Source of the DNA: Candidatus Taylorbacteria bacterium
GTDB taxonomy: Bacteria; Patescibacteriota; Minisyncoccia; Phycocordibacterales; HO2-43-120
Assembly (NCBI GenBank): GCA_039934295.1
Contig: JBDTMN010000001.1
Location: 1 to 38,090 of the forward strand
Reading direction: 5' to 3'
DNA length: 38,090 nucleotides
A program made the position numbers and the translations under genes. This document shows, piece by piece, positions 138 through 21,246 of the stretch. The notes beneath the pieces were generated by a model. That model ran no database searches. It saw only the letters and a program-made list of their open reading frames with translations, and was not told the origin of the DNA. Numbering within the stretch: position 1 is the first letter of the stretch; each line of letters opens with the position of its first letter.

Positions 138-734
138 CTATTTCATTAAACTTTCTACAATCTTTGTAATTCTTTTGTTGTCGAATATCTTGGCGTACTT
201 CGCCAGCTTCTCCTTATTGAGACTGTTTAGTGTGATAGGATTGAGACGTAATCCTTCGATATCGTCTGCGCTCTGTATTTTCGCTAGATTGAAATAAATA
301 TAATCAAGCAGGGCCTTTTCCGGTTCAGCTAAGAGAAACATCCGCGCACCTGTTTCCTGAATTGTATATCCCCAAAATAGTTCCTTCTTTATATGTCTAT
401 ACACAAATAGACCAAAGTCGTTCTTTATTTGTCTGGTATTTCGAGTTGTTATAGAAGTTGGCGTATATACGATTTCCGGAATCAATCCATGATAATGCAG
501 AGCCCACTCAAGACTCAAATAACTGGGTTGATAGAGCCTAAACGAGATATTTTCTTGAGTCAGCTCATTTTTCTTGTTTGCTATGGCGTAAAGCCCATTT
601 TTGAGACGGATGATCTGCTTGCTCTTTGCAAGGGATGTGAATTGGGCGGGTATGACCTTTTGACCCATGATTCTTAGGTCCTGGATTGAAAATATGGAAT
701 CCGTAAGATTTTCGAGTAATTCAGTGTATCTCAT
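138..734 (-). CDS. AbiEi-family antitoxin / transcriptional regulator of a type IV toxin-antitoxin pair
   Basis: 198 aa. The N-terminal third (about residues 1-55) reads as a winged-helix segment with a turn (LKNGLYAIANK). The rest carries the AbiEi pattern: SYLSLEWALHYHGLIPE near residue 71, a YTPTSITTRNTRQI strand, FGYRHIK-like FVYRHIKKELFWGY, and EKALLDYIYF near residue 139. In this family the protein both represses its own promoter and antagonises the AbiEii nucleotidyltransferase, whose gene follows at once on the same strand. A TATAAA-like hexamer lies about 11 bp before the ATG. Pairing with the downstream toxin makes the call firm. Such modules are typically phage-defence or stabilisation cassettes; which applies here cannot be told. 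Confidence 0.85.
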   Translation of the reverse strand: MRYTELLENLTDSIFSIQDLRIMGQKVIPAQFTSLAKSKQIIRLKNGLYAIANKKNELTQENISFRLYQPSYLSLEWALHYHGLIPEIVYTPTSITTRNTRQIKNDFGLFVYRHIKKELFWGYTIQETGARMFLLAEPEKALLDYIYFNLAKIQSADDIEGLRLNPITLNSLNKEKLAKYAKIFDNKRITKIVESLMK

Positions 735-851
735 GTTATTGTATATTTATATAATATCTTGAGATGAGTATATCACCTCCAAAATATAGGTCAAGTTCAT
801 ACGTTTCGGATATAGGTGGAAAATAACCAATAACTGAAACGTATAGCATTT

Positions 852-1676
852 TCATATAATATCCGCAAAATATCTCTCAACCTTTTTGAAGACGTAAATG
901 CCAACGAAAAGCAAAATGAGGCAGGCCAAAAATGAGATGCCGATGAGCGTCCAATTTATGGGCGCGGTGCCCAAGAGAGCGGCGCGGGCGTTTTGGATGA
1001 CGCCGGTCATGGGGTTCAAGGCGAGCAACTTCGAATATTTTCCCGCGATGCTCGCAGGATAAATAACAGGCGTTAAGAACAAAAGAATCTGGATGAAAAA
1101 AGGCAGGGCATAGCGCACATCGCGATACTTGACGTTCACAGCTGCCAAAACAAGACCACCTCCAATAGCCGCCATGACGCTAATGAGGAGAAGAAGTGGC
1201 ATGAGCAGGAATCCAGCTAGGTTCGGCATGTACCCGTAGTAGACCATGAGCCCGACCAATATGACTGATGCTATAGCGAAATCCACGAGCTTGGTCACGA
1301 CCGATGAGATAGGAAGGATGAGGCGCGGGAAGTAGACTTTGGTGATGATGGCTTGGTTGGTTATGAGCACGCTACTCGTTTCAGAAAGCGCGCTCGAGAA
1401 GAATTGCCAAAATAATAGTCCGACGTAGACGAATATCGGATAGGGGACTCCGTCGGAAGGCATCTTAGCCAATTGTCCAAAAAAAACCGTAAAGACAACC
1501 ATCGTGATGAACGGTTGAAATATTGCCCAGCCAGCGCCGATGGCGGTCTGTTTGTAGCGAACCTTGAGGTCGCGCCAGGTAAAAAAATACAGGAGCTCAC
1601 GATATGCCCAGATCTCCTTCAGGTCCCGCAAATGGAATATTTTCCTTGGTCTAATGATTGTTAAAGAAGTGCTCAT
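852..1676 (-). CDS. ABC-2 type polysaccharide/polyol-phosphate export permease (Wzm/TagG-like)
   Basis: 274 aa with six hydrophobic segments. The N-terminal cytoplasmic part contains YRELLYFFTWRDLKVRYKQT, the family signature ending in RYKQT, followed by GAGWAIFQP. NPMTGVIQNARAALLG near the C-terminus is also typical of the Wzm/TagG group. These permeases pair with an ATPase (Wzt/TagH) to move a lipid-linked glycan across the membrane. Normally the ATPase is the next gene, but downstream lies the AbiE pair and upstream an HTH gene, so the partner must be elsewhere. A TAAACT hexamer 8 nt before the ATG could be a -10 box for a leaderless message. Confidence 0.9.
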   Translation of the reverse strand: MSTSLTIIRPRKIFHLRDLKEIWAYRELLYFFTWRDLKVRYKQTAIGAGWAIFQPFITMVVFTVFFGQLAKMPSDGVPYPIFVYVGLLFWQFFSSALSETSSVLITNQAIITKVYFPRLILPISSVVTKLVDFAIASVILVGLMVYYGYMPNLAGFLLMPLLLLISVMAAIGGGLVLAAVNVKYRDVRYALPFFIQILLFLTPVIYPASIAGKYSKLLALNPMTGVIQNARAALLGTAPINWTLIGISFLACLILLFVGIYVFKKVERYFADII

Positions 1677-1687
1677 TGTTGGCTAGT

Positions 1688-1936
1688 TTACCATTTGTTT
1701 ATCTTTTTCACGACTTTTTTCTTGAGTCCCATGTATGACTTGACCGCTTCCTTTTCCAGATTGGGGGAAAGAATCCTCAAAATTTCTTTTCCAAGGATTC
1801 GATACTGTCCGCCAACTTTGTTTGCGCGAAGCAGACCTCTCTTAAGGAGGCGCTTAATCGTGCTTTGACTGATCTTGAGGATTTTTCTGGTTTCAATCGT
1901 TGTATAAACGGCATCAGAATTAATTTTCTGGTTCAT
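1688..1936 (-). CDS. Small helix-turn-helix protein, excisionase/MerR-like
   Basis: 82 aa from the ATG at 1936. VYTTIETRKILKISQSTIKR followed by LLKRGLLRANKVGGQYRILG is a clear MerR/excisionase-type winged helix, with a DNA-contacting R-x-GGQYRI wing. The basic C-terminus (KKKVVKKINKW) may also bind nucleic acid. A longer reading from a TTG at 1972 is possible, but the ATG at 1936 lies 7 nt after a TACAAT box with a perfect -35, so the shorter start is strongly preferred. The target is unknown; the gene lies just upstream of the export permease on the same strand (11 bp gap) and could be co-transcribed with it. Confidence 0.75.
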   Translation of the reverse strand: MNQKINSDAVYTTIETRKILKISQSTIKRLLKRGLLRANKVGGQYRILGKEILRILSPNLEKEAVKSYMGLKKKVVKKINKW

Positions 1937-1943
1937 GCGCGTA

Positions 1944-1972
1944 ATTGTATGCCACATAACAAGAAGTGTCAA
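1944..1972 (-). promoter_or_regulatory. Sigma70-like promoter giving a leaderless transcript
   Basis: On the minus strand TTGACA (1972-1967) is separated by exactly 17 bp from TACAAT (1949-1944), and the ATG of the HTH gene follows 7 nt later. The expected +1 is at or next to the ATG. The -35 element lies in a 10-bp repeat that gives a second TTGACA 10 bp further upstream. Confidence 0.8.
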
Positions 1973-2009
1973 AAGGTGTCAAAAGGTGTCATTTAATAGA
2001 AAGGCAAAA

Positions 2010-2036
2010 GAAAAAAGCCACCCCTAAAGATGGCTC
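2010..2036 (-). terminator. Rho-independent terminator of the nucleotidyltransferase gene
   Basis: Read on the minus strand, AGCCA (2035-2031) and TGGCT (2020-2016) pair around a 10-nt loop and are followed by a run of T. It lies about 55 bp after the stop codon of the gene at 2090-2539. Confidence 0.7.
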
Positions 2037-2089
2037 ACAACACTGAAGATTTTACCCACTCCGTTTGAAAAAGCGGTTGTGAATTATTC

Positions 2090-2539
2090 TCAAGATTCAG
2101 ACTCAAGAAGTCTTTTCCTCATCTCACTTGTCGAAATCGGAGTAAAGTCGAGCGACTTCCTGATCTGAACGTATTTTGCTCCGCGCAGTTCGCAGAACTC
2201 TTTTTTTCGGTCAGCGTGTTTGTCGTCGTCGGTTGAAACCAAAAAGTCTGGTTTAATCGAATCAAACGCCTCCACAAAGTCGAAAATAGGGTCCTTCATT
2301 TTGCGTCCCATGACTACGATGTCGACTGTCCGCAATTCTTCAAGGATTCCTCGCCTATGCGCTTCAGAAAGAATCGCTTTTCTTTTCTTGTAAGCGAGTA
2401 CCGTTGCGTCGTCCGCGTAGCAAACAACAAGACGAGCACCCGGACCCCCGACTGCCTTTGCGTCTTTGAAGAATTGAACGTGACCTCCATGAAGGAGTTC
2501 GTATGTGCCTGAGACGAAGACTGTCTTTTTTGACTTCAT
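2090..2539 (-). CDS. Cytidylyltransferase-fold nucleotidyltransferase (FAD synthetase / RfaE2 / TagD-like)
   Basis: 149 aa. The N-terminus VFVSGTYELLHGGHVQFF contains the nucleotide-binding H-x-G-H motif (HGGH). PDFLVSTDDD and the C-terminal TPISTSEMRKRLL, an ISTS-like motif, complete a single nucleotidyltransferase domain. Members of this superfamily couple CTP or ATP to sugar phosphates, glycerol phosphate or FMN; which substrate applies cannot be read from sequence. The nearby polysaccharide-export permease hints at an envelope role, which is inference. A TAAAAT hexamer 9 nt before the ATG may be the -10 box. Confidence 0.85.
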   Translation of the reverse strand: MKSKKTVFVSGTYELLHGGHVQFFKDAKAVGGPGARLVVCYADDATVLAYKKRKAILSEAHRRGILEELRTVDIVVMGRKMKDPIFDFVEAFDSIKPDFLVSTDDDKHADRKKEFCELRGAKYVQIRKSLDFTPISTSEMRKRLLESES

Positions 2540-2657
2540 ATTTTTTTCATTTTACCACATCGTACCATACCACAAAACAATCTCAATAAAAAGGGAGAGA
2601 TAATTGCATTTGCAGAGCCCCTAAATTTGAGTATGATAGTGAAGTAATATTTTCGAC

Positions 2658-2699
2658 CTTACACCTTACACCTCACACCTCACACCTTACACCTTTACT
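2658..2699. repeat. Tandem 7-nt word repeat (TTACACC family)
   Basis: Five consecutive near-identical units (TTACACC or TCACACC) end about 10 bp before the GTG start of the next gene. It belongs to the class of intergenic word repeats seen at many other positions here, but this copy is direct only, with no inverted half. Confidence 0.75.
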
Positions 2700-2708
2700 T
2701 ACATTTTC

Positions 2709-5207
2709 GTGTATCAAAAAACTCTCAAATACATCGCGCTTTCCGGTCTCTTTCTCGTTCCTTTCGTTCCGCTTATTATTGCAGAGGGACACTTTTTTCC
2801 AAGCCTTCTTTTTCCTTTTATCACGGGGAAAAATTTTGCGTTCAGAATTATCGTGGAAATTGTTTTTGCCGCGTGGCTTGCGCTTGTGGTCGCTCATCCT
2901 CAATACCGGCCAAAGGGGTCGCTCATTCTTTGGGCACTTCTCGCTTTCTTAGGAATTATCGCTGTCGCTGACATTTTTAGTGTCAATCCATCTAAGAGCA
3001 TCTGGAGCAATTTTGAAAGAATGGAGGGATTAGTCACTCATGTCCATTTGCTCGCATATTTTCTCGTGGCGGCGACAATGTTTCAAACGCAGAAATTATG
3101 GAGTTGGTTTCTTCATACCAACATCGGTGTCGGCATTTTCATGGTTCTCTATTGCGCTCTGCAGTTAGGCGGAGAGCTTGTCATCAACCAAGGCGGAGTG
3201 AGAGTTGACGGGACTTTCGGCAACGCGAGCTATCTTGGCGTGTATTTCTTGTTTCTCATTTTCTTCGCGCTACTCTTTGCGGTGAAAAGAAATGCAGGAG
3301 AACTCCGAAATATTGTTGCAAGCGGAATGCTGGGAAGTATCCTTTTTTTAATAAATCAATTTTTTTCATATTTTGCAAGATTGTCCGATCTTCAAGCGAA
3401 ATATGCGGGGGTCGTTCCTCCCGGCGTGAAAGAGAATTTCTTTTTTGGTCCTCTCGATACATGGTTGTTCATCCTCTCTCTCGTAGCGATTATTATTCTC
3501 GCATTTGTTTGGTATAAGTCGAAAAAATGGGGAGACGGTGCTAAAAATAAAGTTGCTTTAAGTTTTTATCTTCTCACGATGGCACTATTTTCGATTCCTC
3601 TCTACTATTCTGCGACGCGAGGGGCGATTTTGGGAAGCATATTCGGACTTACGATTATTTTCGTTCTCCTCGCCCTGTTTGAGAAAAAAAATAAAATACT
3701 ACGGGGAATAAGCATCGCGGTCATTGCCGGCATTATCATTTTGTCCGCTGTCTTTGTGAGCGAGAAGGACAGTGAATTTGTAAAGAATAATGTTACCCTA
3801 TCTCGGTTCAGCTCGCTTTTCAATTCGGACATTAAGACATTTTTCACTTCTGGGGAAGGGAAGTCGCGGTATTTGATTGGCAAAGCGGCTCTTGAGGGTG
3901 CGGAGGCGAGGCCGATTCTGGGATGGGGGGAGGAGAGTTTTAATTATCTCTTCTATGCACACTATGACCCGGCGATGTATAATCAGGAAGCCTGGTTTGA
4001 TCGCGCTCACAACGTTATATTCGACTGGCTCACCGCGGGAGGCATTCTCGGACTTCTTGCGTACCTCTTCATTTTTGTTGTCGCATTTTATTACCTTTGG
4101 AAAGATAGACGCGGGGACTCGCCTCGCATGCCTTTTTCGGAAAGGGTGATTATTGCCGGACTTTTGATCGCCTATTTTCTAGAGAACCTTACCGTTTTTG
4201 ACAACATCGTAAGTTACATTTTTTTCTTCACAGTTCTCGCGTTTCTCCACTATACTTACGGGGGCACTCGGGTACTTCCCGTCGCGAATGCGGTAAAATC
4301 TAATAAGAAAATAAACAAAGTACAGAAAGACGAGACGGATATTGTCGCTCCGATTTTGATTGCCATTGCGCTTCTCTTTTCTCTCTATTTTGTAAATATG
4401 AGGGGAATCCAGACGGCGCGAAATCTTATTTCGGCAATCTCTCCGCAGGAGCAAGGATTCCAAAAAAATCTCGAATATTTTAAACGCGCTCTCTCCTATG
4501 GTTTTCTCGGCAAAAGCGAGGTGAGAGAATTTTTGGCGCAATCGGCGGAGCAGGTGTCTGCTTCAGATGCTGACCAGAAAGTGAAGGACGCGTTTTATAC
4601 TTTGGCGAAAACAGAGCTTGACCAACAGCTTAAAGAGACTCCGCTCGACGTTCGGTATTATTTTTTCGCGGGCACGATGGCTCTTCGAATTGAAGGAGCA
4701 AATGCGGGCATTCCGTATCTCGAGAAAGCCGTCGAACTTTCCCCGAAGAAACAGCCTATTCTTTTGGAGCTTGGGCAAGCGTATGCAAATGCAGGCAAAA
4801 TTCCCGAGGCGGTCAAGCTGTTTCAAAAAGCCTACGAACTTGATACGACGTATGATGATGCACGGGTCATCTATGCTTTGGGTCTCATCTACTCGAAAGA
4901 CAATGCGGGAGCGCAGAAACTTTTGGGCACAAGATGGGATTCACTGCTTTTGTCGGACGCGCGGTTTCCGAGCGCGTTTAGCGTTTCGGGACAGTATCCG
5001 CAGGCGATTGCCCTTTGGAAAAAATGGATAGAGAAGGACCCGAAAAATTTCCAAGCGCATCTTTCTCTTGCTTTGAGCTACATCAAAATAAACGATAGGA
5101 CGAATGCTGTTCTGGAGTTGCAAAAAGCTATTTCGCTTGACGCAACGTTTAAGGAGAGGGGGGAGGATTTGATTGGAGCTATTAAGGCAGGCAAGAAAAT
5201 CGAGTAG
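2709..5207 (+). CDS. O-antigen ligase/polymerase-like membrane protein with C-terminal TPR repeats
   Basis: 832 aa, GTG start. Residues 1 to about 460 contain roughly a dozen hydrophobic segments. Around residue 435 RAHNVIFDWLTAGGILGLLAY is the Wzy_C/O-antigen-ligase signature (R-A-H-N followed by a Gly-rich helix); STRGAILGSIFG-like YSATRGAILGSIFG precedes it. After a linker and a further membrane span near 565, residues about 640-820 form TPR-like helices (LELGQAYANAGKIPEAVKLFQKAYELD and similar). Such proteins polymerise or ligate lipid-linked glycans at the outer face of the membrane. The Wzm-like permease 1 kb upstream fits an envelope-glycan role. No Shine-Dalgarno is visible before the GTG. 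Confidence 0.88.
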   Translation: MYQKTLKYIALSGLFLVPFVPLIIAEGHFFPSLLFPFITGKNFAFRIIVEIVFAAWLALVVAHPQYRPKGSLILWALLAFLGIIAVADIFSVNPSKSIWSNFERMEGLVTHVHLLAYFLVAATMFQTQKLWSWFLHTNIGVGIFMVLYCALQLGGELVINQGGVRVDGTFGNASYLGVYFLFLIFFALLFAVKRNAGELRNIVASGMLGSILFLINQFFSYFARLSDLQAKYAGVVPPGVKENFFFGPLDTWLFILSLVAIIILAFVWYKSKKWGDGAKNKVALSFYLLTMALFSIPLYYSATRGAILGSIFGLTIIFVLLALFEKKNKILRGISIAVIAGIIILSAVFVSEKDSEFVKNNVTLSRFSSLFNSDIKTFFTSGEGKSRYLIGKAALEGAEARPILGWGEESFNYLFYAHYDPAMYNQEAWFDRAHNVIFDWLTAGGILGLLAYLFIFVVAFYYLWKDRRGDSPRMPFSERVIIAGLLIAYFLENLTVFDNIVSYIFFFTVLAFLHYTYGGTRVLPVANAVKSNKKINKVQKDETDIVAPILIAIALLFSLYFVNMRGIQTARNLISAISPQEQGFQKNLEYFKRALSYGFLGKSEVREFLAQSAEQVSASDADQKVKDAFYTLAKTELDQQLKETPLDVRYYFFAGTMALRIEGANAGIPYLEKAVELSPKKQPILLELGQAYANAGKIPEAVKLFQKAYELDTTYDDARVIYALGLIYSKDNAGAQKLLGTRWDSLLLSDARFPSAFSVSGQYPQAIALWKKWIEKDPKNFQAHLSLALSYIKINDRTNAVLELQKAISLDATFKERGEDLIGAIKAGKKIE

Positions 5208-5210
5208 GCA

Positions 5211-5334
5211 GGATTCACAGATTTGGCGAATTTCTTTGTCGCCAGCTCCGTATGTTCCCGCGCAGTAGCATCAGAACTACAGCTTGGTCACATTACTCGC
5301 TGGCTCCTCGAACTTCGCCCAAATCTGCGAATCC
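5211..5334. repeat. Large nested inverted repeat after the Wzy-like gene
   Basis: GGATTC-CAGATTTGG at the left end (5211-5234) pairs with CCAAATCTG-GAATCC at the right end (5310-5334) with few mismatches. An inner GCCAGC/GCTGGC pair and a GTAG/CTAC pair nest inside. No coding potential is evident. The region could be a cruciform or a folded RNA of about 124 nt. Confidence 0.7.
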
Positions 5335-5348
5335 TTAAATAATGAGAT

Positions 5349-5644
5349 GTGCGCACTAGGATTCGAACATTACATGTTCAGTACCCCGATTGGATTTTTT
5401 CTTCGTCATAGGATGACTCGAAAAATACTCAATCGGGCTTCGAATCCTAGAAGTAGGTAATCGCATTACCTACTTGCGCTTCCTCAAAAGTCTCGGTGCG
5501 CGCACTAGGATTCGAAGCCTACTGCTTCAGTACAGCTTTCCCATCCCCCACCACTTTGTTGCAAAGTGGTGGGGGATATGGGAGAAGCTTTTCGAATCCT
5601 AGGCGAAAGCAAAATAGTTTGCTTTCTTGCTTGCCCCTCGCAGA
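5349..5644 (-). repeat. tRNA-Ile 3'-end-derived palindrome array, two units of about 150 bp
   Basis: The final 19-25 bases of the tRNA-Ile T-arm and acceptor region recur at 5349-5367 and 5492-5516, in the same orientation as in the tRNA (5645-5669). In each unit CTAGGATTCGAA (5356-5367; 5505-5516) is answered by its inverse TTCGAATCCTAG (5439-5450; 5591-5602). Inside lie long hairpins with unrelated sequence (for example 5534-5589, a 19-bp-class stem). Between units sit perfect short hairpins (5451-5475, 11-bp stem; 5605-5626, 9-bp stem). The structure repeats while the stem sequences do not. Confidence 0.85.
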
Positions 5645-5649
5645 CTCGG

Positions 5650-5722
5650 TGCGCGCACTAGGATTCGAACCTAGGACCCCATCAGTATCAGTGATGTGCT
5701 CTACCAACTGAGCTATGCGCGC
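5650..5722 (-). tRNA. tRNA-Ile (anticodon GAT)
   Basis: Full cloverleaf on the minus strand: 7-bp acceptor GCGCGCA/TGCGCGC, D-arm GCTC/GAGC, anticodon stem CATCA/TGATG with loop CTGATAC giving GAT, and T-arm CTAGG-TTCGAAT-CCTAG. The discriminator base is A, and a complete CCA is not encoded (the DNA continues CCG). Copies of its 3' end form the adjoining palindrome array. Confidence 0.95.
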
Positions 5723-5799
5723 GTAAAATCTTTACAGAATATAGCAAAAACGGGACGTGGTGACAACTTTTTTTGGAATCTCTCCCAACTTTCGAATTA

Positions 5800-5834
5800 T
5801 ACTTTCTACTTTACACTTTCAACTTTTAACTTCA
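5800..5834. repeat. Degenerate ACTTT-type word repeat before the TerC-like gene
   Basis: Units of the form TACTTTC, TACTTTA, CACTTTC, AACTTTT follow each other and end 4 bp before the ATG at 5839. Direct orientation only. Same class as the other word repeats. Confidence 0.6.
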
Positions 5835-5838
5835 TTTT

Positions 5839-6753
5839 ATGACCTGGTTTTCAATTCTACTCACCATATCCGGCCTCTGTCTTTTTGAAATCATCAGCAG
5901 TGTTGATAATGCCATTATCAATGCCGAAGTGCTTTCGACTATGGGAAAGAAAGCGCGAAAATGGTTCCTTTTCTGGGGGCTTTTATTTGCGGTCGTGGTG
6001 GTTCGCGGTCTTTTGCCGTGGCTTATCGTTTTTTTGGCCACTCCTTCGCTCGGACCCGTCCAGGCTTTTACCGCGACTTTTAGCAATGACCCTAAAGTGC
6101 ATTTGGCGATAGAATCGGCAGCACCTATCCTTCTTGCGGGAGGAGGGATCTTTCTCATCTTTCTTTTTCTTCACTGGCTTTTTTTGGAGCCAAAAAATTA
6201 CGGACTTTTTGGAGAGAAATTCTTTCACTCGCAAGGCAATTGGTTTTTCGCTCTCGTATCAATCATTCTCGCCATGGTAGTATGGTTCGCTCTCAAAATA
6301 AATCCATTTATGGCGTTCGGGGCGGTACTCGGTTCTACTGTTTTTTTCATCACGCACGGCTTTAAAGAAAATGCTGAGAAGAGCGAACGAGAGCTTATCT
6401 CGGGCGCGAGCGCCAAGTCTGATATAAGCAAAATTTTGTATCTTGAGGTGATTGACAGCACTTTTTCGATTGACGGAGTTTTGGGAGCTTTTGCCTTCAC
6501 GCTCTCTGTTCCACTGATTCTTATCGGCAACGGCTTGGGGGCTCTTGTCTTGAGACAACTTACCGTAGGCAACATTGAAAGAATAAAAAAATACCGTTAT
6601 TTGAAAAACGGAGCGATGTACTCGATTCTTTTCTTGGGACTCATCATGCTTTCTGAAAGTTTTGGAGCGCATATCGCAAGCTGGCTCTCCCCGCTCGTAA
6701 CATTTGTCGTCATCCTCTATTTTTTCCTAAAATCTAAAAAAGAACTCGACTAG
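5839..6753 (+). CDS. TerC/DUF475-family integral membrane protein
   Basis: 304 aa with about eight to nine membrane spans. The N-terminal LCLFEIISSVDNAIINAEVL and the later ILYLEVIDSTFSIDGVLGAF are the paired acidic motifs (E..SxDNA and E..DSxFSxDGV) shared by TerC and DUF475 proteins, where Asp/Glu residues sit inside the membrane and are thought to bind or move metal ions, as in the manganese exporter MeeF/Alx group. The protein is alone in its unit: a word repeat precedes it and a strong hairpin terminator follows. The exact ion is unknown. Confidence 0.88.
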   Translation: MTWFSILLTISGLCLFEIISSVDNAIINAEVLSTMGKKARKWFLFWGLLFAVVVVRGLLPWLIVFLATPSLGPVQAFTATFSNDPKVHLAIESAAPILLAGGGIFLIFLFLHWLFLEPKNYGLFGEKFFHSQGNWFFALVSIILAMVVWFALKINPFMAFGAVLGSTVFFITHGFKENAEKSERELISGASAKSDISKILYLEVIDSTFSIDGVLGAFAFTLSVPLILIGNGLGALVLRQLTVGNIERIKKYRYLKNGAMYSILFLGLIMLSESFGAHIASWLSPLVTFVVILYFFLKSKKELD

Positions 6754-6767
6754 TAGCCGTATCTCAA

Positions 6768-6810
6768 AACCCCGAAAAAAGCCAGTAAATCACTGGCTTT
6801 TTTGGGGGTT
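6768..6810 (+). terminator. Rho-independent terminator after the TerC-like gene
   Basis: AAAAAAGCCAGT (6775-6786) and ACTGGCTTTTTT (6792-6803) form a 12-bp stem with a 5-nt loop, extended outward by AACCCC/GGGGTT. The symmetric A and T runs would allow action in both directions. Confidence 0.88.
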
Positions 6811-6817
6811 TCTGTCC

Positions 6818-6845
6818 TTGACTTTTACCCCAGATATGCTATAAT
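6818..6845 (+). promoter_or_regulatory. Sigma70-like promoter of the leader RNA / cold-shock-domain gene
   Basis: TTGACT (6818-6823), 16-bp spacer, TATAAT (6840-6845). The predicted start near 6852 leaves a leader of about 183 nt before the ATG at 7035, in contrast to the leaderless layout of many genes here. Confidence 0.75.
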
Positions 6846-6877
6846 ACTCCCAGAAATAAAGTGCTCTTTGCAATCGG

Positions 6878-6994
6878 GTTGTTACCGTCTTTTGGGACGA
6901 ATTTCTGTACCATGCGCCTCTAGGCGGATTGTGGCGTTGCGAATGCCACTCATGCGAATGGTCCTAATCGTTTTTCTCAAAATACGGTAACAAC
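6878..6994 (+). ncRNA. Structured 5' leader RNA (candidate riboregulator)
   Basis: GTTGTTACCGT (6878-6888) and ACGGTAACAAC (6984-6994) form a perfect 11-bp closing helix. Inside, ACCAT/ATGGT (6909-6913 with 6958-6962) closes a junction holding two hairpins, CGCC-TCTA-GGCG (6915-6926) and GTGGCGTT-GCG-AATGCCAC (6931-6949). The element lies between a good promoter and an A-rich unstructured stretch that leads to an AAAAGG ribosome-binding site. It matches no riboswitch class I recognise. The downstream protein ends in a cold-shock-like domain, so a cspA-like thermosensing leader is one possibility (inference). Confidence 0.6.
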
Positions 6995-7034
6995 ATCAAA
7001 CAACAACAAACAAAAAGAAACAAAAGGAAAAAAA

Positions 7035-8165
7035 ATGAAAGACATTGAACGTCCCGCCCCGCTGAAGCCTCTCACAAGAGAGCAACTTCGCGCTCGGCAC
7101 GAAACGGGAAATCGGAATGCCGGTCTGGTGGAAGATGAAGGGATGCGGGCGCTCGAGAGGGCGCTTGATGACATCCAGAAAGAAGCCGGTGAACCCGCAG
7201 TCGAACCCCCAGTAAATCGTCCGATGTTCGGTTCCGATTCGGTGACCCGCTCGGTCTCCTACGAGAACCAGCATTTTGGTTCGGTATCGGTTTCGATTAA
7301 TGACTTTACCATGGGGGAATATTTTCATCCCCTTGGCGATATATTCACGATGGTTGTTCCCCTGCACATTACTGGTCAGCCGAACAAAATCACCTTTTCT
7401 CTTCAACGGGAACTGGCGGATGGAGTCAGGCTGTACTGGGCGCAGAATGGTCCTCCAAAGGATTGCACGGAAGAAGATGTTCCAACGTTTTCGATTCCGA
7501 TTACATGGATGGCGCGTGCTCAGAAGGACATTCCGAGCACGGTTGATAAAGTTGGAAGCGACATTGACCTGGTCTTCATAGATCAGTCTGGCCGCTTCAT
7601 CCTTCTCAACATCAGCCTTGCGTCAATTTTCGGACGCTTCACTCTGACTCTGAACCAGGCCTATGGTGGCCAGGTTGTGAGAACGACGCCGGAAAACGCG
7701 CAAAAATGCAAATTGCAGAGCGTGGTGATAAAGGGGCATGTTGCGTCTGTTGTTCCCCTTTTTGCGGAAGACGCCTACCCTGGTGCAGATTTCTTCCGGT
7801 CATTCAAGTATTTGGCCGGCGGAGTGGTCACGTCGGCCATCGAGATTGGTGCCTCAACCCCGCTTCACAAGTGCGTCATTGCACATTGGGAGCCGGAGGA
7901 GTGGGAGTTACCAACTGAACTTCAGATGGAAGGGGGGTGGCAAGTAGCCACAGTCAAGATGTTTCCTCCAAGCATACGTTACGGTTTCCTCCTGTGTGAG
8001 GACAAGAAGGACTGCTTCGTTCACTTTAAGCAGCTCCATAATCGCAGGGGCAAACCGGTCTATTATTCCTCGTTTCCGCATTTGCGGAAGATGAGCAAAG
8101 TTGCCGTCAAGTTCGAAGAACAACCTGACGGAAAACGGAAAGCCACCGCGGTGCGTGTTCTTTAA
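7035..8165 (+). CDS. Unknown protein with C-terminal cold-shock-like domain
   Basis: 376 aa. Residues 1-70 are charged and probably disordered. Residues about 75-295 are a soluble, beta-rich region I do not recognise (for example FGSVSVSINDFTMGEYF and GRFILLNISLASIFGRF). Residues about 299-376 look like an OB-fold cold-shock domain: W-QVATVKMFPP, then RYGFLLCEDKKDCFVHF, which resembles RNP1 (K-G-F-G-F-I) and RNP2 (V-F-V-H-F), then VAVKFEEQPDGKRKATAVRV. Such domains bind single-stranded RNA or DNA. Unlike most neighbours the gene has a clear ribosome-binding site (AAAAGG, 8 nt before ATG) and a long structured leader. An RNA-binding regulator is a reasonable guess; the main domain's role is unknown. 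Confidence 0.8.
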   Translation: MKDIERPAPLKPLTREQLRARHETGNRNAGLVEDEGMRALERALDDIQKEAGEPAVEPPVNRPMFGSDSVTRSVSYENQHFGSVSVSINDFTMGEYFHPLGDIFTMVVPLHITGQPNKITFSLQRELADGVRLYWAQNGPPKDCTEEDVPTFSIPITWMARAQKDIPSTVDKVGSDIDLVFIDQSGRFILLNISLASIFGRFTLTLNQAYGGQVVRTTPENAQKCKLQSVVIKGHVASVVPLFAEDAYPGADFFRSFKYLAGGVVTSAIEIGASTPLHKCVIAHWEPEEWELPTELQMEGGWQVATVKMFPPSIRYGFLLCEDKKDCFVHFKQLHNRRGKPVYYSSFPHLRKMSKVAVKFEEQPDGKRKATAVRVL

Positions 8166-8200
8166 GTCCAACACTTTCGAGTTGTTGGCAAAATCAAAAG

Positions 8201-8241
8201 GAGCGGAGGGTCATTATTCATGATCCCCGCTCTTTCTTTTT
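8201..8241 (+). terminator. Terminator after the cold-shock-domain gene, overlapping the end of valS
   Basis: GAGCGG-GGGTCAT pairs with ATGATCC-CCGCTC around TATTC, followed by TTTCTTTTT on the plus strand. The last codons and stop of the convergent valS gene lie inside the stem. Confidence 0.75.
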
Positions 8242-10464
8242 ATCTGAGTTAGTAGTAGCGGCCAATGTGGAAGACGAATTATACAACTTTGCGTGTAATT
8301 CCTCTGTCATGAACGGCATGAAAGGATGTAAGAGAGATAAATATTGTGCGTACACATGCCTCAAAACGGAAAGGGAAGTTCTATGATTGTCTGATTGCGT
8401 TTCTATATCGTGCATGTAATTTTCCAAGCTTACAATAAAATCACACAATTTTTCCTGAGCTATTGCGAACGAAAACCTATCGAGAGAGAAGCTTACGGAA
8501 GAACTAAGTTTATGAAGAGCCTCCGCAATTCTCTTGTCATTTGAAGAAAATTGCAGAGAGTTGGAAAAAGCGAATGCATACTCTTCGGCCAATGAAACAG
8601 ATTTTCCTATGCTCCATAGTTTTTGTGAAAATTTCTGATAAAAAAGCAATCGTTCCTCTTCAAAAATAAAATCTTCTTGCAGGTGTGTATATGAAATAAG
8701 AGCCATGCGAGTGACATCTGCTCCAAATTTTTCTAAATAGTATTCAGGATCGACGGCGTTTCCCAAGCTTTTACTCATTTTTTGACCGTCTGAGCCCTTT
8801 ATGAGACGGTGCAAATATACGGTTTTATAGGGCAATTGATCAGTCAGGTAGTAACTTAAAAGAATTTGTCTTGCGATTAATAGTCTAAGTAAGTCATCAC
8901 CAGGAACGCACGAGTCACTCGGGTAAAAGTAAGAAAAATCAGGAGAGAAGTTATCGAAAACGATTGTACCCCACTGTCCGGAAGAAAACCACGTATCAAA
9001 CGTATCTGTTTCCGGTAAATAAGATTTATTTTTCTCTTTTTCCAATACCCACGGTTCACCTTCAGAAGCATAAATTCTTTCTAAACCATCACATATTTCT
9101 CCTAGAGAAATACCGGTTTCTAAGAATGTTTTTAAATTGCCATAATGTTGCTTTCTGGCTCTATCAACAAACCAAATCATAAACTTTGATGGATCGGAAA
9201 TATCATACCAGACAGGAATTTTAATACCCCATACATTTTGTCGCGCTATTGGCCAGTCATGCATTTTGTTTATCCACCCAGTCAATGCTTTCTCTCTCCA
9301 TTTCGGAAAAACAGTAAGTCCACTTTTTCTCATTGCTTCAAGAGCAGGTTTTTTTAATGACTTTTTCTCATCATCAAGCTTCAAAAACCATGTAAGCATA
9401 ATCATACTTTCAACTGTATGTCCGCGTTTACAAAGAAAAACAGAATCCGTGTACGATTTATCTATCTTTTCGATTACTCCTAGTTCCTTCAAGAATAAAA
9501 TTTCTTTGTTGCGCGCTTCAACGGGCTTCATACCTGGATTCCGTTCAATCATATTGCCATTCCAATCCAACAAATTTCGCGATGGAATAGAATTACGCAA
9601 AGTATACCCGTAGTCATAATTATTATATGAAGGAGAAAAAGGAAAAAGATAAGGGTCGCATGTCAATGGGTCAAATTTTCTTTTACTTTCAATTACTTCG
9701 ACCGTATGTCCTGAAATTGGATTTTTCAATATTTTTCCAATATGATGTGCAAACCTATTATCCGCTGGATGGATTAATACATGTGTAGTGGCAAAAAGAA
9801 ATTCAGGACGTGTAGTTGCTAATGCGAGATGTTCTTCACTATTTTCGACTTTAAACTTAATGAAATAAAGAGAGGTATTTTCCTTTTTCTCATTAAGCTC
9901 AATATCTGCCAAAACTGTTCCGCACTGGGAACAATAATTAACCATATACGGTCGTCGATAAATAAGATTATCAGCAATCATTTTTCTGAATGTTTCCCGG
10001 ACTGATTTTAGTGATCGTTCGTCCATCGTAAAGCGAAACCGTGACCAGTCTACACTCGCTCCCAAAGCTTTTGTCTGCTTTTTTATTAACTCATTATTAT
10101 GTTCTACAAAGTGCTGTATTTCTGTAAAAAGTTCACTTTTAATGTAATCAAATCTGTTTTTACCTTTTTTTTCCAATTCTCGTTCAAATGTAACTTGAGT
10201 CTCATATCCGCCATGGTCTGTACCAGGGATCCATAGGGTAGTATCACCTTTAGCTCGGTGATAACGGGCCAAGATATCTTGAAGAGCAATCATGAGGATG
10301 TTTCCAACATGCATACCACCGCTTGCGTTTGGAGGGTCAAGAAATAGTGAGAATGGTTTTTTTGATGGGTCAATTTTGGGGGTGAAGTAGTTGCCATCCT
10401 CCCACATTTTGGAAATGCGGGGCTCGACTTCTTTGTGAATGTAGTGTTTGGGTAGAGAGCCCAT
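8218..10464 (-). CDS. valS: Valine--tRNA ligase, short divergent form
   Basis: 748 aa. Class I synthetase: PPNASGGMHVGN near residue 44 occupies the HIGH position, WIPGTDHGGYETQ corresponds to the ValRS signature GTDHAGIATQ, an editing (CP1) region with ATTRPEFLFATTHVLIHP follows, then DTFDTWFSSGQW, and KMSKS lies in GQKMSKSLGNAVDP. The anticodon-binding domain closes with HPFMPFMTEELH. Two deviations: the HIGH motif reads HVGN, and the protein stops right after the anticodon domain, so the usual C-terminal coiled-coil arm of bacterial ValRS (about 880 aa) is missing. The gene looks more AT-rich than its neighbours. TATACT lies 10 nt before the ATG. Confidence 0.9.
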   Translation of the reverse strand: MGSLPKHYIHKEVEPRISKMWEDGNYFTPKIDPSKKPFSLFLDPPNASGGMHVGNILMIALQDILARYHRAKGDTTLWIPGTDHGGYETQVTFERELEKKGKNRFDYIKSELFTEIQHFVEHNNELIKKQTKALGASVDWSRFRFTMDERSLKSVRETFRKMIADNLIYRRPYMVNYCSQCGTVLADIELNEKKENTSLYFIKFKVENSEEHLALATTRPEFLFATTHVLIHPADNRFAHHIGKILKNPISGHTVEVIESKRKFDPLTCDPYLFPFSPSYNNYDYGYTLRNSIPSRNLLDWNGNMIERNPGMKPVEARNKEILFLKELGVIEKIDKSYTDSVFLCKRGHTVESMIMLTWFLKLDDEKKSLKKPALEAMRKSGLTVFPKWREKALTGWINKMHDWPIARQNVWGIKIPVWYDISDPSKFMIWFVDRARKQHYGNLKTFLETGISLGEICDGLERIYASEGEPWVLEKEKNKSYLPETDTFDTWFSSGQWGTIVFDNFSPDFSYFYPSDSCVPGDDLLRLLIARQILLSYYLTDQLPYKTVYLHRLIKGSDGQKMSKSLGNAVDPEYYLEKFGADVTRMALISYTHLQEDFIFEEERLLFYQKFSQKLWSIGKSVSLAEEYAFAFSNSLQFSSNDKRIAEALHKLSSSVSFSLDRFSFAIAQEKLCDFIVSLENYMHDIETQSDNHRTSLSVLRHVYAQYLSLLHPFMPFMTEELHAKLYNSSSTLAATTNSDKKKERGS

Positions 10465-10482
10465 TTTGGTAATAAGTATACA

Positions 10483-11382
10483 TCATCTCCCCGTAATCAG
10501 GCACGCGACTGTGCCGTCGAATGTCCAGCCGTTTTTGAGAGATTTTTGGAGGCCGGCGACGGCGAGGGCGGAGTTGGGAGAAAGGACAATGCCCGTTGAT
10601 TGTAATGCGGTCGATTGGGCATCCAAAATTTCCTGGTCTGTCGCAATCCAGCCGAATCCGCCGGATTTTTTTATTATTTCCACGACTTTGTCTTTTCGGT
10701 ACGCAGTTTTGTCTACAATGGCATCGGCAATCGAGCTCGTCTCATTTTTTTCATCAAGGTCGGGCCTTGATATGGGGGGATTGCCAAAGACTTCGGCGAT
10801 TGGGTGGCAGAAACTGGTTTGCGCAATATGGATTTGGATTTTGAAATTGAGCTTTGAGAATGTCTCTCCGAGAGCTTGGGCTGTTGTGCCGGAAGAAGTG
10901 GGAATGAAAACTGCCTGCAAGTTGGGGATTTCGGAAAGTTCGCGAGCGAGCTCTTCGTATCCCGCGAGCGCGCTGTCATCTTTTGATTGACGTAAACTTA
11001 TTACCTTGGGATTTTTAAGAACGCCAAAAAGTTTTTGAAGCGGTCGCTCGACTTTTTGAATTGTGATATTGGGGTCGGTGATTTTTAGAAGCGAGTCGAG
11101 TTTTTCTTTGTTAATGTTTCTGCCCACAAAAATATCGAGTTTGATTTTGTTCTTATTTTTCAGATTATATTCCCGAACATAAAGCCCTGCCGCATATGCC
11201 GCATTTCCTGAAGAAGAAATAGCAAAATGCTGTGTGCCTTTCGCGAGATACTGCTCAATCATTTTCGGGATTGAACGGCCCTTGTGCGAGCCATATGGAT
11301 GAAGGTCCTCACGTTTGAAATAGAGCGCTGATATGCCCAGTGCTTTTGCAAGGGCGGGGTATTGTTCGTGAGGTGTCAACAT
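10483..11382 (-). CDS. Pyridoxal-phosphate-dependent enzyme, threonine synthase/fold-type II family
   Basis: 299 aa. Near the N-terminus YFKREDLHPYGSHKGRS gives the expected Schiff-base lysine in the S-H-K-G pattern of threonine synthase and related beta-family enzymes. AISSSGNAAYAAGLY is the substrate-binding S-S-G-N-A motif, and FIPTSSGTTAQAL is the phosphate-binding Gly/Ser/Thr loop. NSALAVAGL near the C-terminus is typical. It is shorter than true threonine synthase (about 350-430 aa), so the substrate is open. The gene is divergent from a 54-aa zinc ribbon. TACAAT lies 6 nt before the ATG, so the transcript is probably leaderless. Confidence 0.85.
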   Translation of the reverse strand: MLTPHEQYPALAKALGISALYFKREDLHPYGSHKGRSIPKMIEQYLAKGTQHFAISSSGNAAYAAGLYVREYNLKNKNKIKLDIFVGRNINKEKLDSLLKITDPNITIQKVERPLQKLFGVLKNPKVISLRQSKDDSALAGYEELARELSEIPNLQAVFIPTSSGTTAQALGETFSKLNFKIQIHIAQTSFCHPIAEVFGNPPISRPDLDEKNETSSIADAIVDKTAYRKDKVVEIIKKSGGFGWIATDQEILDAQSTALQSTGIVLSPNSALAVAGLQKSLKNGWTFDGTVACLITGR

Positions 11383-20037: not shown

Positions 20038-21246
20038 CTACTGGCTTTTCCAAAGTGTGGATGAAAGCCACAAACGGTTGTGCCAAGAAAGGGTTATTCG
20101 TATCGTTAACCCCGTAGACCAATGGGAAGGAGAAAATGGTATCGCTCCAGTTTTCTCGAGGCGAATCCAGATCGGGATTCGCTCGAACGGAATATATTCC
20201 CGCTCCACTTCCTCGAATGACGAAATTCCAGGGAATTTCTGCAAATGGCTGTGAAGGAGGCGAGCTCGGGGACCCCGAAGGTCCAGGCCTTGAAACAATA
20301 AATTGAGGTTTATCGGCGAATTCGTATCCGGCAAAGTCACACTCGTGATAGTCGTTGCCTCGGTTTGCTCCAGTCGCGCCACAAACCCATACGGACTGTT
20401 TGTCGCATCAAAAGGTAGCCCTTCCATAGGACGGTCATAATAAGCCTCTGACCGGTGAGTCAACCCTTCGGGAGGAATTGTGATGGCTGCTTTCTCTGTC
20501 CAGCTTTCGTCTGGGGCTCCCACGTTTCCGCTTACCTTCAAAACGAAAGTCTTCCCGGCGTTGACCCAGCCTCCTTTGAATTGGATACGAATACGGAGAA
20601 TGTCTGTCTGTGGCATCCAGTAGTAAAAGAGATTGGTTCCTGGATTGCCATCAAGCTCAATTCCATAGGATGCAAATTCGAACAGACCTAGTGTTGTGGG
20701 CACGTTATATGTGACCACGTTCGAGGGTAAGCTCTCGATTCCGTCGATGGTGTAGGCTGTTGCGAAGAAGTGATAAGTGATTCCCGCTTGTAGAAACGGA
20801 ATGGTAGTCGTGAGCACAGGGCCCACATCAATTACATTCGTTATGACGCCCGCAACATCGCCGTAATAGATGGCATAGCCAATCACCTCCTCGCTAGGAC
20901 TCAGACTCCAAGCCAAAGTGACAGTTTGCATCGGCGGAAGTGTTACCTGCGCACGTGGCGTGATGGGCGAGATAGCCGCGGCCATCCTTTCTGCATCCGC
21001 GAGAGGCACTAACGAATGTGTCGAGCGCGGATTCACCCCGAATGTTAGGGGTGGCAGCACAGAAACTGCAGACGGAGCTTCCAGGGCGAAACCATGGGAG
21101 CTCTCTGCAGACGGCTGTTGATGGGAGGTGCCTTTTTGGGGCGTCTTTGATGAGGTGGCGCATCCCACACCCATCCACAAAGCCAGTACGGCTCCAATGA
21201 GCGACTGGGTGCTTGCAACAAAAGAACTGCGAACGGATCTCTTCAT
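20038..21246 (-). CDS. Fibronectin type III-domain lipoprotein, C-terminus apparently frameshifted
   Basis: Starts at ATG 21246, with an AAAGGA-type ribosome-binding site 9 nt upstream. The N-terminus is a lipoprotein signal: MKRSV..., a hydrophobic core LIGAVLALWMGVGC with Cys in a lipobox. A Ser/Pro-rich linker follows, then one fibronectin III domain (VTLAWSLSPSEEVIGYAIYYG ... GITYHFFATAYTIDGIESLPSNVV), then a beta-rich domain with WTEKAAITIPP and NSPYGFVARLEQ. The open frame ends at 20038 with an unconvincing basic tail. From about 20285 another minus frame gives SSPPSQPFAEIPWNFVIRGS and later NWSDTIFSFPLVYG, DTNNPFLAQPFVAFIHTL, ending at 19988. That tail resembles the preceding domain, so a one-base shift near 20270-20290 is likely. 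GC content and the ribosome-binding site differ from neighbours. Confidence 0.72.
   Translation of the reverse strand: MKRSVRSSFVASTQSLIGAVLALWMGVGCATSSKTPQKGTSHQQPSAESSHGFALEAPSAVSVLPPLTFGVNPRSTHSLVPLADAERMAAAISPITPRAQVTLPPMQTVTLAWSLSPSEEVIGYAIYYGDVAGVITNVIDVGPVLTTTIPFLQAGITYHFFATAYTIDGIESLPSNVVTYNVPTTLGLFEFASYGIELDGNPGTNLFYYWMPQTDILRIRIQFKGGWVNAGKTFVLKVSGNVGAPDESWTEKAAITIPPEGLTHRSEAYYDRPMEGLPFDATNSPYGFVARLEQTEATTITSVTLPDTNSPINLNLLFQGLDLRGPRARLLHSHLQKFPGISSFEEVEREYIPFERIPIWIRLEKTGAIPFSPSHWSTGLTIRITLSWHNRLWLSSTLWKSQ

Follow-up and report, generated by a model that had tools for sequence, protein, structure and literature searches.

A folded leader RNA and a candidate two-gene module around a hypervariable cold-shock-domain protein of Patescibacteria

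In a 38,090-nt stretch of DNA from a Candidatus Taylorbacteria bacterium (hereafter the window; contig 105 kb, genome 1.05 Mb), a near-consensus promoter and a folded leader RNA precede the gene of a 376-amino-acid protein that ends in a cold-shock domain (CSD). With a probability of about one half, we prefer to read the leader as the beginning of a single-gene transcription unit with high output, and the CSD protein as half of a rare module of two genes in Patescibacteria. Strong expression is the most likely function of the leader, in that its structure would act as a shape that shields the transcript from decay and keeps the ribosome-binding site (RBS) free, and not as a sensor. The protein itself, judged from sequence only, would be abundant, would bind RNA or the ribosome, and would be the substrate or working partner of an adjacent amino-acid-activating enzyme. 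Strict pairing of its family with two unrelated enzymes of this type is most simply explained if protein and enzyme work together; an abundant CSD protein and a dedicated ligase, the latter in a putative role, would then form one module.

The leader alone is ordinary; the module is not. That one family goes with either of two unrelated enzymes, both ATP-using and amino-acid-handling, suggests equivalent jobs for the two, and such a shared role is directly testable. If true, the module would offer a foothold on a process in ultra-small bacteria with genomes of about 1 Mb, where a second synthetase gene is costly, and would explain the second valyl-tRNA-synthetase-like (ValRS-like) gene retained in some of these genomes. 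In the literature searched, with most subscription papers outside it, no description of such a module was found.

Results

Table 1. Coordinates of the features at the CSD-protein locus (window numbering).
Feature	Position	Strand	Remarks
terC/DUF475 gene	5839-6753		ends in a terminator-like repeat, before the promoter
Sigma-70-type promoter, extended -10	6818-6845	+	TTGACT-16-TATAAT, 11/12 matches, TG before the -10
Leader RNA, 183 nt	6852-7034	+	predicted start 6852; fold -48.2 kcal/mol, z -3.1 to -3.2
Closing helix, 5' strand	6878-6888	+	pairs with 6984-6994; its self-complement is also a minus-strand match in the sequence search
Closing helix, 3' strand	6984-6994	+	11 perfect pairs with 6878-6888
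A-rich single-stranded linker	6995-7034	+	Shine-Dalgarno-like AAAAGGA before the ATG; predicted unpaired
Gene of the 376-aa CSD protein	7035-8165	+	highest G+C among the window ORFs of at least 100 aa (n = 32)
Regions of the CSD protein	residues 1-36; about 62-300; about 300-376		predicted structure: low-confidence N-terminus; beta-rich; cold-shock domain
Terminator-like hairpin and T run	8201-8241		overlaps the stop codon of the convergent gene; found by eye, not in the promoter-region scan list
Second, divergent ValRS-like gene, 748 aa	8218-10464	-	convergent partner; HIGH/KMSKS kept, editing-site motif lost

Promoter and structure of the leader

The clear promoter claimed in the first-pass annotation was confirmed as the near-consensus site of Table 1. 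It was the top-scoring of 10 promoter-like sites in a scan of positions 5000-10600, a total that showed no excess over shuffled sequence (9.8 sites), and its position predicts transcription to start at about 6852. Promoter-like sites were also found upstream of the family gene in 10/10 relatives. The site in genome G501 was picked by eye, and the G501 leader in the fold comparison starts at this site and not at the script-chosen one.

The same annotation had described a structured leader of about 183 nt, with an 11-bp closing helix, an inner helix, two hairpins and an open A-rich RBS linker, and this description held for 6852-7034, the start being a predicted one. The predicted fold (-48.2 kcal/mol) places one inner helix and two hairpins inside the closing helix. 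For 6852-7034 the z-score was -3.1, with 2/500 shuffles equally good, and for 6853-7034 it was -3.17, with 0/200. At the Rfam gathering threshold, the window yielded four tRNAs only and left the leader unmatched; at E up to 10, six sub-threshold matches in 6750-7100 lay over the upstream terminator or promoter region, and none was credible as a leader family. Searching the genome for further copies of the leader returned short A-rich chance matches only. An ATG-started frame within the leader (6943-6990, + strand; a 15-residue product with much Val, Leu and Ile) overlaps the closing helix, has no RBS visible by eye, and is probably a chance occurrence.

A leader of this kind might be temperature-responsive in the manner of cspA, with cold refolding that alters access to the RBS, as had been suggested at first. 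The leader is long and folded, the protein has a CspA-type domain, and this domain was the only CSD found in the genome. The cspA leader of E. coli is a thermosensing 5' UTR (PMC4496569), and in both cases a long 5' UTR precedes a CSD-encoding gene. The resemblance ends there, since structure and RBS access barely depend on temperature in the predictions for the window leader. Its core was identical from 5 to 50 C; the minimum-energy folds at 15, 25 and 37 C differed only in two outer closing pairs and a 2-bp inner piece, and the RBS region was 67-74% unpaired at every temperature from 5 to 50 C. In E. coli cspA-type leaders a cold box is expected near the 5' end; none was found in 6852-7034 with up to 2 mismatches. 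The leader is moreover not conserved in relatives, and it lacks the GTCGA element that precedes 7/9 of the relatives' own stand-alone csp genes. We consider a temperature switch very unlikely and prefer a leader that serves expression strength.

The GTCGA-containing element was noticed upstream of stand-alone csp genes of relatives (loci L061-L068 and L071), often as AGTCGAGTT, 47-71 nt before the start codon. The expectation is 0.09 occurrences per 150 nt, a figure to be read with some of the nine genes coming from close relatives. It may be a genuine leader element of the csp genes in this group.

Leaders in relatives and before other genes

Leaders of the 11 family members ranged from 31 to 183 nt, those of the 10 relatives from 31 to 175 nt, and their sequences were unrelated. 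Homologous genes without a conserved leader had been named beforehand as the finding that would refute the leader hypothesis, and at the sequence level this is what the 10 relatives show. Three leaders of one genus were aligned, without a structure model, and leader divergence precluded a covariation test. Fold z was below 0 in 11/11 leaders (mean -2.55), at or below -2 in 6/11, and at -3.0 or below in four (the window, G011, G501 and G655). Two leaders were near chance (G031, z -0.93; G516, z -0.44), which counts against our reading. The leaders of G655 and G198 run to a later ATG in this comparison than in the promoter scan, so that their lengths differ between the two, and the family member in G438 has no clear start codon.

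Control upstream regions of the same loci (n = 72) had a mean z of -1.05, and 25% of them reached -2 or lower. Seven other leaders of these loci could be anchored to a promoter, and four of them had z-scores of -3.1 to -5.8; both sets were scored with fewer shuffles than the family leaders and were not length-matched. Since four of these seven were strongly folded, structure is not specific to the CSD-protein gene: structured leaders are common behind strong promoters in these genomes. The view that leaders are mostly absent from the genome holds poorly even within the window itself: for the gene at 20038-21246 (- strand), too, an 11/12 promoter is followed by a leader of 120 nt (z -4.4). This gene encodes a 402-aa protein without a Pfam match, with a lipoprotein-signal-like start and the second highest G+C in the window. 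A similar case in G516 (L044, 2981-3637, - strand) is the gene of a 218-aa protein with no Pfam match and no relative in the compared loci; it has a consensus promoter, a 125-nt leader with z -5.8 and a GC3 above that of its neighbours, the same design as the CSD-protein gene.

As a shape, the leader may be compared with 5' stabilisers of the ompA type, in which a stable stem near the 5' end likewise lies upstream of an open RBS (PMC2948425). In 8/11 family leaders a predicted helix starts no more than 4 nt from the predicted 5' end. In ompA-type stabilisers the stem lies within 2-4 nt of the 5' end; the strong helix of the window leader, by contrast, begins 26 nt from a 5' end that is itself predicted, and this too counts against our reading.

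Where the leader ceases to be conserved could be located among congeners. In locus L052, the DNA of G031 remains similar to that of G471 as far as position 6606 and to that of G516 as far as 6599, where similarity ends; the predicted transcription start of L052 is near 6600 and its start codon at 6693. Similarity resumes 39 nt after the ORF in G471 and inside the ORF, at 7089, in G516. As similarity ends at the predicted transcription start, the promoter has been kept; conservation is lost for the leader and, wholly or in part, for the ORF.

Such joint divergence of leader and ORF between a promoter and a downstream flank that stay similar would also suit autoregulation, in which the CSD binds its own mRNA leader and tunes synthesis, leader and protein co-evolving so that neither is conserved. 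The domain is of an RNA-binding type, and the A-rich single-stranded linker is a possible target. Of the 11 leaders, however, only that of the window has an A-rich linker, no leader motif is common to the family, and unrelated genes also have structured leaders. Nothing in this analysis favours autoregulation, which we regard as distinctly unlikely.

The 376-aa CSD protein

The proposed OB-fold C-terminus was supported, and by its predicted structure it is a genuine cold-shock domain. Against the Pfam cold-shock domain (PF00313), the C-terminal ~75 residues scored 24.8 bits (E 2e-5; cut-off 27), and in the genome search the same region reached 28.7 bits, over the 27-bit cut-off. The predicted full-length model (pLDDT 83, pTM 0.83; C-terminal part mostly above 85) gives this domain a five-stranded OB fold like that of CspA, and it aligned with E. 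coli CspA (1mjc) at Z 10.6 and an rmsd of 2.0 over 68 residues. Its RYGF and FVHF strands resemble RNP1 and RNP2. The CspA fold is thus common to this domain, CspA/CspB and other PF00313 proteins. In contrast to CspA/CspB, several RNP residues are altered, a beta-rich domain of ~240 residues without a clear fold match is added, and the family is rare and hypervariable, not small and ubiquitous.

Modelled alone, the beta-rich domain had a pLDDT of 87. The best hit of a structure search among 997 chains had Z 5.7, below the level of unrelated folds, and the best Foldseek hit had E 0.066; lack of a convincing match is no proof of a new fold. No PDB sequence relative of the 376-aa protein was found. 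By the Pfam model, the window genome has no stand-alone cold-shock protein. Of the 12 genomes searched with this model, four lacked such a protein (G000, which is the window genome, G001, G011 and G655), and the other 8 had at least one.

Distribution and pairing with partner enzymes

Two samples were searched: 397 genomes of the order, and 383 genomes of the class, for which the model had only 4 rows and was less sensitive. The CSD-protein family was present in 9/397 genomes of the order (12 matches less 3 CSD-only), a count from which the CSD-only matches in G535, G708 and G719, and also G159, were left out. The class sample added G198 and G438, in both of which an ATP-grasp gene adjoins the CSD gene. 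For 8 of the 11 members the next gene downstream, on the same strand, encodes an ATP-grasp protein of ~490 aa; in the other three (window, G011, G501) the adjacent, convergent gene is ValRS-like. The two partner types are thus oppositely oriented, and in the window the paired genes do not share an operon, which counts against our reading.

Within the order sample, a full-length ATP-grasp gene was found in 6/397 genomes and a ValRS copy at 50% identity or more in 3/397. These were exactly the 9 family carriers, with the partner adjacent in 9/9, and neither partner, so defined, was seen in any of the 397 genomes without the CSD protein. Five further ValRS matches under E 1e-100 were only 31-34% identical and were counted as canonical. 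Of 24 genomes checked, all 8 with the ATP-grasp pairing had the full-length gene; it was found in 0/16 others, two of which gave weak partial matches only. G001 and G719, from the same families (f1, f57) as carriers, lack both CSD family and partners; the former gave a weak partial ATP-grasp match and the latter the dropped CSD-only match. The 9 carrier genomes span only 6 taxonomic families and are not 9 independent events, and a phylogeny of all 11 family members gave no clear answer as to whether the ValRS-paired ones form one group.

The neighbours could be coincidental, the CSD gene being a single mobile cassette and the partners passengers of its landing sites. In favour of this, the neighbours are of two different kinds, and the composition of CSD gene and partner in the window differs (GC3 0.57 and 0.33). 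Passengers, however, should not be confined to genomes with the CSD gene, as the partners are in the order sample. We judge coincidence very unlikely and retain a module of two genes that act together.

Partner enzymes

The canonical ValRS lies elsewhere in the window genome (C4) and over its first part is 38% identical to the copy at 8218-10464. Identity of the copy with its counterparts is 69% in G501 and 50% in G011, where the gene seems split between two contigs. Against TIGR00422 it scored 547.4 bits, under the curated cut-off of 612.1, and its Anticodon_1 domain scored 51 bits. The GTG...H/D editing motif of the aligned canonical ValRS is lost, and HIGH- and KMSKS-type motifs are present; by these motifs, the copy may be either a synthetase that is active but does not edit, or a ligase that has been repurposed. 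That a genome of about 1 Mb has a second ValRS-like gene, its editing site degenerate, is an observation in its own right.

The ATP-grasp enzyme is well conserved (mean column identity 69%), with the active-site sequence ECNPR in 8/8 members. It weakly matches ATP-grasp_3 and a biotin-carboxylase-named model, not RimK, and a search for sequence relatives in the PDB found none. Ribosomal protein S6 receives glutamates from RimK (PMC4431377). The E-x-N motif is common to the partner enzyme and to RimK and similar ATP-grasp ligases; the weak model matches and lack of a PDB sequence relative set it apart from RimK. In another known system, EpmA ligates beta-lysine to EF-P (PMC6544042). EpmA and EF-P likewise pair an aminoacyl-tRNA-synthetase paralog with an OB-fold protein, and modification by the window pair is putative. 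EF-P has OB folds, and EpmA is a LysRS paralog without an anticodon-binding domain. The window paralog, unlike EpmA, is ValRS-like and keeps its anticodon-binding domain. EpmA on EF-P and RimK on S6 are precedents for enzymes of these types modifying translation proteins, and by analogy the partners at this locus may do so as well. More specifically, the neighbouring dedicated ligase might attach an amino acid or a peptide to an abundant, hypervariable CSD protein, ATP-grasp and editing-less ValRS paralog filling the same role in different lineages as a new modification or translation-control module; in this detailed form we hold the idea to be unlikely.

Divergence rates and composition

The two halves of the candidate module evolve at different rates, with a mean column identity of 34% for the CSD protein vs. 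69% for the ATP-grasp enzyme. Between the congeners G031 and G471, the central domain of the CSD protein is 32% identical, the lowest value of the compared locus; the ATP-grasp enzyme is 66% identical and the other compared neighbours 53-98%.

A hypervariable protein beside a conserved partner, patchily distributed (9/397), is also the pattern of a conflict module, the main rival to our reading. The fast-changing CSD protein would block translation or amino-acid use, or act like a bacteriocin, and the partner would provide immunity, the ValRS copy being insensitive. Against this, immunity is not an obvious role for an ATP-grasp enzyme, and most of the locus is stable across genus-level distances. 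PADLOC gave no trusted match; one 12-bit Cas2 match on the ValRS-like protein was taken as chance, and absence from that library does not exclude defence. No relatives of the 4-row alignment, of two family members or of one ATP-grasp protein were found in viral contigs, and none of one family member (G655) in plasmid and phage collections. In genome contigs, a scan gave three loci, those of G031, G057 and G011. A conflict role is doubtful in our estimate, and we continue to prefer an abundant protein with a dedicated enzyme.

Composition is consistent with high output. The G+C of the CSD gene exceeds that of its flanks in 11/11 members, and most CSD genes have few rare codons and a strong bias to C/G-ending codons, which is weakest in G198. 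In the window the bias is modest (GC3 0.57 vs. 0.49 in seven r-protein genes). The partner genes checked (G057, G516, G501 and the window) lack this bias. Selection for output is our preferred but not proven explanation of the high G+C. Recent import was considered as an explanation and dropped, as the contrast with the flanks recurs in 11/11 members while the locus is stable.

A separate observation concerns the ribosomal-protein operon of the window genome (L020; G000:C3:75000-82000), in which a ~99-nt repeat occurs in nine copies in 7 kb, from 533 to 6577, in successive gaps between genes.
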